NCBI RefSeq assembly: GCF_000190535.1
Contig: NC_015160.1
Coordinates: 744,001 to 808,000 of the forward strand
Reading direction: 5' to 3'
From: Odoribacter splanchnicus DSM 20712
Lineage (GTDB): Bacteria; Bacteroidota; Bacteroidia; Bacteroidales; Marinifilaceae
DNA length: 64,000 bases
Shown: positions 1 to 49,164 of the stretch, piece by piece
Position numbering within the stretch: the stretch's first letter is position 1
How the letters are laid out: the number at the start of each line of letters is the position of its first letter
Position numbers and translations under genes: made by a program
The notes under the pieces: model-generated
The model's input: the letters and a program-made list of their open reading frames with translations, nothing else
What the model was told of the DNA's origin: nothing
Database searches by the model: none

Positions 1-531
1 CACTCCATTTAATCCTGAATGCGTAAGACGTTTATAATCTTCTGCTTTCAGAGGCATTACTTCAATAGAAAGGTTAGCAAAAAGAGGATGGGCCAACTGC
101 AATGCGCGTTCCAGATAGTCGACACCGGCCTCCTTCGGATTCTCCCCTGTAACGATCAATAAATTTTCAAAATTTCCCAGTTTTTTGATAGCATGCAATT
201 CATTGAGAATCTCTTCCTCATTGAGGATGACCCGTTTGAGGGGATTGTTGTGATTGAATCCGCAATAGACACAGAAATTTGTACACGAATTAGTGATATA
301 CAAGGGGATATACATCGATATGGTTTTCCCGAATCTTTGTAAGGTATATTTTTGGCTTAATGCGGCCATCGGTTCCAGGTATTTCTCTGCAGCCGGAGAA
401 ATCAGGGCCATAAAATCGTCGATGGCCAACTGGCTTTTACTTAAAGCCAGTTCTACATCGGCGGCTGTTTTAGAGTAGATTTCCCGGGTCGTTTCTTCCC
501 AGGAATATTTTTCAAGTTCTTCCGAAAACAT
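1..531 (-). CDS. thiH: 2-iminoacetate synthase ThiH (partial, 5' part)
   Basis: This is the first 177 codons of a radical-SAM enzyme; the rest lies beyond the window edge. ThiH cleaves tyrosine to dehydroglycine (2-iminoacetate), which ThiG uses to build the thiazole phosphate half of thiamine. The reading frame opens at an ATG at 531 and carries the CxxxCxxC [4Fe-4S] motif at residues 83, 87 and 90 within CTNFCVYCGFNHNN, the hallmark of the family. It is the last visible gene of the minus-strand thi operon, 28 nt after thiG, and should share the riboswitch control at the head of the operon. The motif spacing (x3 then x2) together with the thi context makes a BioB or other radical-SAM identity unlikely. 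Confidence 0.95.
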   Translation of the reverse strand, partial: MFSEELEKYSWEETTREIYSKTAADVELALSKSQLAIDDFMALISPAAEKYLEPMAALSQKYTLQRFGKTISMYIPLYITNSCTNFCVYCGFNHNNPLKRVILNEEEILNELHAIKKLGNFENLLIVTGENPKEAGVDYLERALQLAHPLFANLSIEVMPLKAEDYKRLTHSGLNGV

Positions 532-45740: not shown

Positions 45741-46934
45741 TTAGCTCAATCTTACTGTATCCATAGCGATCACAAGCTCTTCATCTGTAGTAACCGTCAT
45801 CACCGTGGTAGTCGATTGTTCTGTGCTGATAATCGTATCTTTTCCCCGGACTTCGTTCTTTTGTTTGTCGACCTGGATGCCAAGGTAGTCCATATTCTTA
45901 CAGGTTTCCCAGCGTACCAGATTGTCGTTTTCGCCGATACCTCCCGTGAAGATAATCAAGTCTACACCGTTCAGTACTGCGGCGTAAGCTCCGATATATT
46001 TCTTCACATTGTAACAGAAGACATCGAGAGCCAAGGCCGCTTTTTCGTTGCCTTTTTCCATGGCTGCCTGCAATTCGCGGAAGTCAGAAGAAACACCGGA
46101 GATTCCCTGAACCCCTGATTTCTTATTAATCAAATTATTGGCTTTGGGAAGGTCCAGCCCTTCTTTTTCACAGATATAGAGTAGGGCACCCAAATCCAGA
46201 TCTCCGGCCCGCGTTCCCATCACTAGTCCGGCTACAGGAGTAAATCCCATCGAGGTATCGACCGATTTACCTTTATCGATCGCCGTAATCGAAGCTCCGT
46301 TACCCAAATGGCAAGTGATGATTTTCTTTTCGGTAATATCCCAACCTAAGATCCGGCATGCTTTCTCTGCTACAAATTTATGGGAAGTACCGTGGAAGCC
46401 ATATCTTCTGACTCCGTATTCTTCATAATATTCGTAAGGAATACCATAAATGAAAGCTTTTTTAGGCAGAGTCTGATGGAAAGAAGTATCGAAAACGGCT
46501 ACCTGAGGTACGGAAGGAAGCAATTTTTCCATCGTTTCGATCCCTTTCAGGTTTGCCGGATTGTGCAGAGGAGCGATTTCACCTAAAGCTTTGATTTTAG
46601 CTTTGGCTTCATCGTCGATTTTCACGCTCTCGGAGAAATATTCACCTCCGTGTGCAACACGATGGCCGACAGCATCGATTTCGTTCAGAGATTTCAATAC
46701 TCCATGGTCAGGATGAACCAATGCTTTCAGGATCAGATCCATACCGACACTATGGTCCATAATCGGTTGCTCGGCGACTACTTTGTCTTTACCTTCCGGT
46801 TTATAGGTAAAACTACCGTAAGTCAAACCGATTTTTTCTACAATACCTTTGGCGAGCACGACAGGTACTGCATCCATATTCAGTAATTGATACTTGATGG
46901 ACGAACTACCGCAGTTTAATACTAAAACATTCAT
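45741..46934 (-). CDS. ackA: Acetate kinase
   Basis: A 397-residue kinase producing ATP and acetate from acetyl phosphate. It starts MNVLVLNCGSSSIKYQL with the ASKHA phosphate-1 loop, and contains HRVAHGGEYFSE, FDTSFHQTLP, RRYGFHGTSHKFVA, HLGNGASITAI and GFTPVAGLVMGTRAGDLD. Length matches the family. It follows pta by 28 nt on the same strand, forming the fermentation pair that turns acetyl-CoA into acetate. Confidence 0.98.
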   Translation of the reverse strand: MNVLVLNCGSSSIKYQLLNMDAVPVVLAKGIVEKIGLTYGSFTYKPEGKDKVVAEQPIMDHSVGMDLILKALVHPDHGVLKSLNEIDAVGHRVAHGGEYFSESVKIDDEAKAKIKALGEIAPLHNPANLKGIETMEKLLPSVPQVAVFDTSFHQTLPKKAFIYGIPYEYYEEYGVRRYGFHGTSHKFVAEKACRILGWDITEKKIITCHLGNGASITAIDKGKSVDTSMGFTPVAGLVMGTRAGDLDLGALLYICEKEGLDLPKANNLINKKSGVQGISGVSSDFRELQAAMEKGNEKAALALDVFCYNVKKYIGAYAAVLNGVDLIIFTGGIGENDNLVRWETCKNMDYLGIQVDKQKNEVRGKDTIISTEQSTTTVMTVTTDEELVIAMDTVRLS

Positions 46935-46962
46935 TTCTATTTTATTAAACGTTTTTATTCCG

Positions 46963-47967
46963 TTAATTTATTCCGGCGGCCTGATTTACTGTGATCGCTA
47001 CCAGATTGACGATATCACTGACAGAACAACCTCTGGACAGGTCGTTGATAGGAGCGGCCATCCCCTGAAGTACAGGACCTACAGCTTCGATACCGGCGAT
47101 ACGTTGTACTAATTTATAACTGATATTTCCAACTTCCAGACTAGGGAAAATCAAAACATTGGCTTTGCCGGCGACAGGGCTACCCGGAGCTTTGCTTGCC
47201 CCTACGGAAGGAACCAGCGCTGCATCGGCCTGCATTTCTCCGTCGATCATAACGTCCGGAGCCATTTGTTTGGCCAGTTCTGTTGCTTTTACCACTTTGT
47301 CGACCAATTCATTTTTGGCAGAACCTTTCGTAGAGAAACTCAACATAGCTACCCGGGGCTCGATTTTGGCAATGGCACGGGCTGTTCCGGCTGTAGATAC
47401 CGCAATTTGTGCCAGTTCTTCTGCTGTCGGATTAGGAAGTACTGCACAGTCAGCACAAACAATTAAACCGTTTTCACCATATTCGGGTTTGTTGGTCAGC
47501 AACAAGAAGGCACCTGAAACGACGGAAATCCCCGGTAAAGTCTTTACAATTTGCAGAGCAGGACGTAAAACATCGCCCGTTGCATTTTTAGCACCGGCAA
47601 CTTCTCCGTCTGCATCTCCGCTCTTAATCATCAAAGTAGCCAGGTAAAGGGGATCTGTAACCAGTTTTAAAGCTTGTTCTCTGGTCATTCCTTTACTTTT
47701 ACGCAGCTCTACCAATAAATCGGCATATTGTTCTTTTTTGGCATGTGATTCAGGATCGATAACGGTAGCTTTGCCGATGTTTTTCAGATTGTGTTTTTGA
47801 GCTAAAGCTTGTATTTCGGCCGGATTACCGATCAGGATAATCTTAGCGATCCCTTCTCCGATAATCTGGTCTGCTGCCTGAATCGTCCGTTCTTCTGTAC
47901 CTTCCGGGAGAACAATTGTTTTACACTGTTTTTTGGCGTTTTCTTTGATTTGTTCTAAAAGTTCCAT
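46963..47967 (-). CDS. pta: Phosphate acetyltransferase
   Basis: A 334-residue enzyme making acetyl phosphate from acetyl-CoA. It is the short, stand-alone PTA_PTB-type form without the N-terminal regulatory DRTGG/P-loop part. Blocks seen: IVLPEGTEERTIQAADQI, DADGEVAGAKNATGDVLRPA, MLSFSTKGSAKNELVDKV, DGEMQADAALVPSV and NVLIFPSLEVGNISYKLVQR. It precedes ackA by 28 nt. Distinct from the ptb at 10752. Confidence 0.97.
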   Translation of the reverse strand: MELLEQIKENAKKQCKTIVLPEGTEERTIQAADQIIGEGIAKIILIGNPAEIQALAQKHNLKNIGKATVIDPESHAKKEQYADLLVELRKSKGMTREQALKLVTDPLYLATLMIKSGDADGEVAGAKNATGDVLRPALQIVKTLPGISVVSGAFLLLTNKPEYGENGLIVCADCAVLPNPTAEELAQIAVSTAGTARAIAKIEPRVAMLSFSTKGSAKNELVDKVVKATELAKQMAPDVMIDGEMQADAALVPSVGASKAPGSPVAGKANVLIFPSLEVGNISYKLVQRIAGIEAVGPVLQGMAAPINDLSRGCSVSDIVNLVAITVNQAAGIN

Positions 47968-48087: not shown

Positions 48088-49164
48088 TTATTCCCCTTCT
48101 TTGTAGATGGTGACACAAGTATTCGCATTGCCTATATCGATACCGACAGCTAGCTGAGGATTTCTGAATATCTTAATTTCTTCCGCTTCAATATTATGCG
48201 GGATATTCGAACGGGCGACGGAAGATTTGATTTTAGAGTTCAGACAATACCCCTGAGAAGCACATTTCTCCGGTTCAGGATATACATTGACCGATACGAT
48301 ATCGCCGAATTCTTCTTTGAAGCAATCGACCAGTTCAGGATACAAAGCACCACCACCGACTAAATACATTTTCGTACATTTATTGAAATCATCGTCTATA
48401 AATGCTCTTCTTAAATTAGGAGCGACGATTTCATTATAGTACATTTTCAATACTTTTTCACGTATATCCAATATGTTGTGTTTAACCCGGTTTACAGTGA
48501 TATTTCCTTTTTGGAAAGCTACATCTATCTGGTGTTCTGTTTTGAGGTTCAGATAGAAATTTTTACTGAGCTCATTAGCCAATAAATTTACGGCATGACG
48601 GATACCGTGGGTACTGACGGCTGAACGGTTGATCAGTCCGGCTCTTGTCGAAACGACGGCTTCGCAGGTGCCGTATCCGAGGCTGACGATAAAAAAGTTT
48701 TCTTTTTCTTGCAGGTTCCCCTCGCGGATTGCTGTCGTACATCCCATAATTTCAGGAATAATCTCGACTTTACCTACGTTCACTTCACGTTTGGTTGTAT
48801 TCGGACCACCGAAAGTGGAAGCATCGTAATTGATAATATGTCGTCCTTGTAAGACTTCCATCGCTTTATCCCGGTAGAGTATATAAGTTGCGAACGGGAA
48901 TCCTGTCGTCAGATAGATTTCCTCTTCTCCTTTCGGTTGGGTAAGCAACAAACTGGCTTCACTCAATAATTTATACTCTTCGTCTGTCGGGGCTGCATTG
49001 ATACTCTTATGTGGAGAATAGCCTTCGACCAGTGCCAGGTTACCGACGATGTAATCCGTATCATCGAGATTGATCTTTATCCCATCCAGTATATTTTCTG
49101 CAACGTTAGCAAGTTCCTGATTAGTCGCTTCATATACGCTAGGAAAATTGTAAGACTTCAACAT
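48088..49164 (-). CDS. Actin-like ATPase of ParM/StbA type, circularly permuted
   Basis: A 358-residue protein. It begins MLKSYNFPSVYEATN and DDTDYIVGNLALVEGY, which in ParM/StbA/Alp proteins follow the first ATP-binding hairpin. The expected order then continues: a phosphate-2-like hairpin FIVSLGYGTCEAVVSTRAG, the long helix region, and the adenosine motif MYLVGGGALYPELVD, ending with CASQGYCLNSK. The phosphate-1 hairpin, normally at the very start, is instead the last segment, AVGIDIGNANTCVTIYKEGE, joined by a linker of about 30 residues. The upstream DNA contains no other copy. The phosphate-2 Asp is replaced by Ser (VSLGYGT). It is monocistronic, between pta and an AlaX-like gene; a filament or plasmid-type role is not shown by context. 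Confidence 0.82.
   Translation of the reverse strand: MLKSYNFPSVYEATNQELANVAENILDGIKINLDDTDYIVGNLALVEGYSPHKSINAAPTDEEYKLLSEASLLLTQPKGEEEIYLTTGFPFATYILYRDKAMEVLQGRHIINYDASTFGGPNTTKREVNVGKVEIIPEIMGCTTAIREGNLQEKENFFIVSLGYGTCEAVVSTRAGLINRSAVSTHGIRHAVNLLANELSKNFYLNLKTEHQIDVAFQKGNITVNRVKHNILDIREKVLKMYYNEIVAPNLRRAFIDDDFNKCTKMYLVGGGALYPELVDCFKEEFGDIVSVNVYPEPEKCASQGYCLNSKIKSSVARSNIPHNIEAEEIKIFRNPQLAVGIDIGNANTCVTIYKEGE

Follow-up and report, generated by a model that had tools for sequence, protein, structure and literature searches.

Actin, MreB, ParM, FtsA and Hsp70 share a common chain order. Among the systems closest to the one considered here, the chromosomal ParM Dh-cParM1 has the canonical order and a ParR gene, unlike the permuted actin presented below, and the main text of its report contains no mention of permut-, Bacteroid- or bactofilin (PMC12270681). 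The pairing of a bactofilin with an M23 peptidase (BacA-LmdC) is described as a morphogenesis module (PMC10945521). Here we analyzed a single-copy gene for an actin-like protein in Odoribacter splanchnicus DSM 20712, within a stretch of 64,000 nucleotides (contig NC_015160.1, positions 744,001 to 808,000; hereafter, the window). Its product is likely to be a ParM/Ta0583-type actin with a naturally occurring circular permutation; its displaced hairpin would complete the ATP pocket, and in most lineages the protein would work with a dedicated bactofilin.

A permuted motif order conserved across the family

From the N-terminus, the protein presents FPSV (residues 7–10), YIVGNLAL (38–45), SLGYGTCE (161–168), LVGGGALYP (268–276), a linker, and only then AVGIDIGN (339–346), i.e., the phosphate-1 element that opens canonical actins. 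This order had been proposed from the letters of the DNA alone (the sequence-only reading), and the homologues bear it out: the phosphate-1 motif G/S-[ILMV]-D-[ILV]-G-N lies past residue 250 in 127/127 full-length homologues, and within the first 80 residues in 0/127. Full-length was defined as 330–460 amino acids, which retained 127 of the 139 fetched homologues and excluded 12 rows outside the range; they come from the 120 top-listed matches out of 591 and out of 745, so the count speaks for the nearest members of the family. The same reading had reported no second phosphate-1 copy upstream, and this holds more widely: for all 76 actin open reading frames (ORFs) preceded by 300 nt or more of DNA, a search of the three coding-strand frames over the preceding 400 nt turned up no such motif. 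As a side observation, the permuted-actin match of one locus (L102, G119:C101:14421-15434) has one internal TAA.

Rotating the query against Pfam gave the result expected of a permutant. The ALP_N score rose from 54.3 to 66.0 bits when the tail was moved to the front (cut-off 26.3), and the match was then complete, while a shuffled tail (one shuffle only) scored 54.1 bits. Across 296 sampled Bacteroidota genomes, ALP_N matched 12 genes, spread over 11 genomes; the matches of 11 genes begin at profile position 16–21, and the Odoribacter gene of the window begins at position 8 only because the search reads across the TAA upstream of its ATG. No canonical-order ALP_N gene was seen among these 296 genomes, where ALP_N recovered 11 of the 19 genomes recovered by the family profile.

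Predicted fold and active site

The expectation that the permuted chain would fold as an actin is supported by a confident AlphaFold2 model (predicted local distance difference test (pLDDT) 91.9, predicted template modelling score 0.90), for which structural comparison indicates the actin fold. The first residue of the model falls opposite residue 19 of Ta0583, residue 21 of Thermotoga MreB and residue 24 of F-actin; among solved structures, ParMs and Ta0583 come nearest. The VIA alignment places model residues 1..313 onto Ta0583 19..325; as a sequential aligner, VIA reaches model residues 1–335 at most, so that the position of the hairpin lies outside its test. Within the core, Pfam assigns ALP_N to residues 3–141 and MreB-like_C to residues 160–274, and DSSP of the model identifies a C-terminal strand pair (Table 1). 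In a mean-field coevolution analysis (209 sequences, effective 65), whose list was noisy and lacked a shuffled control, the pair 71–342 ranked seventh and 337–355 twelfth, in agreement with a formed hairpin that packs against the first helix.

We propose that the chain would be cut between strands 2 and 3 of the first sheet: it would start at strand 3, continue through the normal fold, and end in the phosphate-1 hairpin (strands 1–2), which, tethered by the linker, would dock back into its canonical place within the same molecule and provide the first phosphate loop, with Asp343. Conserved in this Bacteroidota family, the permutation is probably old.

Table 1 Features of the permuted actin gene, in window coordinates
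Feature	Coordinates	Strand	Basis or remark
ORF, circularly permuted actin-like protein, 358 amino acids	48088..49164	-	ORF listing, Pfam; single copy in genome
Actin core, residues 1–313, normal order starting past the canonical phosphate-1 hairpin	48226..49164	-	Pfam; VIA alignment
Glu138, presumed counterpart of the catalytic Glu/Gln in actin-like ATPases	48751..48753	-	E in 68/69 rows
Phosphate-2 segment SLGYGTCE, residues 161–168	48661..48684	-	Ser161 replaces Asp of canonical actin-like proteins
Adenosine motif LVGGGALYP, residues 268–276	48337..48363	-	G270–272 invariant, 69/69 rows
Linker, residues 320–336, from last core helix to displaced hairpin	48157..48207	-	DSSP of model
Displaced phosphate-1 hairpin, residues 337–354, strands 337–343 and 348–354	48103..48156	-	Invariant residues; DSSP

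The hairpin residues G341, D343, G345 and N346 are identical in 69/69 aligned rows. The glycines of the adenosine motif are invariant, and so, nearly, is Glu138, which, judging by the motif, we take to occupy the position where actin-like ATPases have their catalytic Glu/Gln. By contrast, position 161, an Asp in the canonical actin-like proteins compared, is Ser in 68/69 rows and Gly in the remaining one. The Asp at the phosphate-2 site matters for ParM hydrolysis. The pattern of conserved residues suggests that nucleotide binding is kept and hydrolysis altered. A possible, though not favored, alternative is an actin-fold scaffold without catalytic activity, nucleotide-locked or nucleotide-free, which lost its ATPase along with the permutation and the phosphate-2 Asp; the near-universal Ser161 would agree with this, while the (nearly) invariant Asp343, Gly345, Asn346, Gly270–272 and Glu138 suggest selection for nucleotide binding.

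We consider it unlikely that the C-terminal hairpin is instead donated to a filament neighbor, the permutation then acting as a polymer clasp. The exposed, terminal position of the hairpin speaks for such a swap, as does the long linker of the window protein, with ~17 residues unordered by DSSP and pLDDT down to 59. Linker length is variable in the family, however, the commonest class having merely 11 residues (49/123), and monomer models order the hairpin whether the linker is long or short, a monomer prediction being compatible with a swap too.

Bactofilin neighbors and family distribution

We scanned 84,980 species genomes, in which 166 relatives were confirmed, and called and clustered ORFs in 81 loci (the best 80 of these relatives plus the window). 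A same-strand bactofilin-family ORF adjoins the actin in 53/81 loci (40 downstream, 11 upstream, 2 both), and all 55 adjacent bactofilin ORFs match PF04519; 6/81 loci lie at contig edges. This link, which the window's own locus lacks, formed no part of the sequence-only reading. Downstream gaps are about -1 to 11 nt in 27/42 cases, the commonest being 4 and -1 nt. On a tree of 80 actins, in which 79 loci from the species-genome scan are labeled Bacteroidota, the four context labels require 10 changes against a shuffled mean of 33.5, and bactofilin linkage occurs in both halves of the midpoint-rooted tree. This fits an old actin–bactofilin association that the Odoribacter and rumen Bacteroidales branches later lost. 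In a second sample, 20 actin genes outside the window's own genome drawn from the 296-genome sample, 11 had a downstream adjacent bactofilin and 2 more had one two genes away. Bactofilins are present in 23/23 actin genomes, a co-occurrence that is uninformative because only actin-bearing genomes were counted.

Most adjacent downstream bactofilins end in an aromatic residue. Trp is last in 38/42 downstream partners and next to last in 2 more (neither in the other 2), and the 38 Trp-ending partners show 19 different last-five strings; in the second sample, 9/11 downstream bactofilins end in Trp and 2 in Phe. For comparison, Trp, Phe or Tyr ends 0/28 distinct non-adjacent bactofilins, taken from the returned loci only and including two lying two genes downstream, and the aromatic-end count among other ORFs of at least 100 amino acids in the loci is 1/678. 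These counts are not independent, since many rows are close relatives. Upstream partners have another terminus: 0/13 end in Trp, and seven end in D-D-[YF]-S-S-L-[FY]-x, an end shared by the long upstream bactofilins (410–536 amino acids) of L023, L025, L028, L032, L059 and L078. Separately, two genomes (G147, G195) each carry two permuted-actin paralogues (L089/L105, L090/L106), each with its own adjacent W-ending bactofilin, and three actins, L081 (6001-7296), P0116 and P0138, have a long C-terminal tail ending in GKFLKTGMW, L081 being without an adjacent bactofilin.

Because a bactofilin gene stands in translational adjacency to the actin gene in most lineages examined, we propose that the permuted actin may partner a bactofilin scaffold in envelope morphogenesis in a nucleotide-dependent manner. 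It would bind ATP and polymerize, and the bactofilin would make contact with it by way of an aromatic C-terminus. More speculatively, one could envision a two-polymer cytoskeleton, in which a detachable C-terminal hairpin closes the ATP pocket of the actin and a dedicated, co-translated bactofilin grips the actin via its C-terminal Trp/Phe. The freed ends of the actin would then tie together closure of the clasp, nucleotide state and binding of the bactofilin. Through the Asp-to-Ser change, filaments on the bactofilin scaffold would be stable and slow-hydrolysing; we offer this only tentatively.

Several observations weigh against a permuted actin working with a bactofilin. No adjacent bactofilin was found in 22/81 loci that had 700 nt or more on both sides, the window included, and the window genome has its two bactofilins in tandem elsewhere, so that a role in Odoribacter-type genomes is extrapolated. 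The family is conserved in order and patchy in presence: it occurs in 19/296 sampled genomes of the phylum and in 6/40 near relatives (one of the six a fragment), and two same-genus genomes, 99% complete, have no family match, which together indicate that this is not a core morphogenesis gene. Since the phosphate-2 Asp is Ser, the ATPase may be weak or lost, and since the W-ending tail of the L081 actin is predicted to be disordered (pLDDT ~40), docking of such a tail in cis is unsupported. In hhalign comparisons of native, rotated and shuffled-tail profiles with five canonical actin-like proteins, E-values barely shifted with rotation and the shuffled tail scored better for 1/5 targets; alignments reached the canonical phosphate-1 region with the rotated profile in 3/5 cases and with the shuffled one in 0/5. 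We preferred the Pfam rotation test because hhalign E-values fail to separate rotated from shuffled. In a sequence search of the PDB, rotation improved the E-value only from 0.014 to 0.0075. An M23 peptidase gene is unsupported as a general companion, no M23 relative having been found among the ORFs of the 81 loci.

In the window, the upstream neighbor of the actin gene is on the opposite strand, and its downstream same-strand neighbor is a 334-amino-acid ORF, followed by one of 397 amino acids (45741-47967, - strand). By eye, we take these two to be a phosphate acetyltransferase and an acetate kinase; ORFs of these two families also lie downstream of the actin in the Odoribacter and Culturomica loci L002–L005 and L056. 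Acetate kinase is itself an actin-fold enzyme, and its position beside the actin is probably a coincidence. The genome also encodes a canonical MreB.

These neighborhoods bear on whether the protein might be a permuted ParM of a DNA-moving, ParMRC-like segregation system, with the bactofilin as an incidental neighbor or an anchor. Public databases name the protein a ParM/StbA family protein, its best PHROG is a phage partition protein, and the nearest solved structures, as noted above, point the same way. We nonetheless regard this possibility as quite improbable: the gene is a single chromosomal copy, close relatives were not found on viral contigs, plasmids and phages give only weak matches (10 and 3 records, identity ≤27%, E ≥ 0.005), and the downstream neighbor is an apparent metabolic gene in the window and a bactofilin in most loci, rather than a small adaptor gene. 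No small ParR-type adaptor gene was found adjacent to the actin in the window, where neighbors were inspected and no dedicated ParR profile was run. A phage or plasmid origin was likewise rejected, the viral contigs yielding 43 pattern matches with no confirmed relative. Finally, a frame error, wrong start or assembly break splitting a normal gene can be dismissed as practically impossible, given an identical order in every full-length homologue across many assemblies, the missing upstream motif, and a frame closed upstream (361 codons in total, leaving room for ≤3 extra residues ahead of the ATG).

Comparison with known systems

The fold is known. As far as we found, neither the present chain order, nor the phosphate-2 change, nor the link to bactofilins has been described, and no permuted actin was found in the literature searched (open-licence papers). 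A conserved natural family with a moved hairpin would indicate that the actin fold tolerates permutation while the hairpin residues stay invariant, and offers an experimental system for asking whether closure of the actin nucleotide pocket depends on chain order. The family further suggests that an actin and a bactofilin, filament systems mostly studied separately, are directly linked at the genetic level in Bacteroidota, a phylum with major gut bacteria.

Among known proteins, MreB shares the actin fold, yet differs in chain order, and the MreB_Mbl match here is short and below cut-off (17.7 bits versus 27). BacA-LmdC resembles the present loci in the bactofilin adjacency seen in most of them and, at L145 (5477-9047) and L146 (5450-9047), in an M23 peptidase within the same operon (M23 peptidase, actin, TPR protein, bactofilin, then small membrane proteins); it differs from them (PMC10945521) in that they encode an actin-like protein and mostly aromatic-ending partners. 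Dh-cParM1 (PDB 8x1i) is likewise chromosomal with a ParM fold, and gives the top VIA Z of 28.1 over 308 residues. The protein also resembles the Pfam ALP_N/MreB-like_C proteins (ParM, Alp7A, Ta0583), with which it shares the fold, the domain order after the hairpin, and recognizable phosphate-1, phosphate-2 and adenosine motifs, and from which it is set apart by a C-terminal hairpin, a phosphate-2 Ser in place of Asp, and, in most loci, a bactofilin instead of a ParR-like neighbor.
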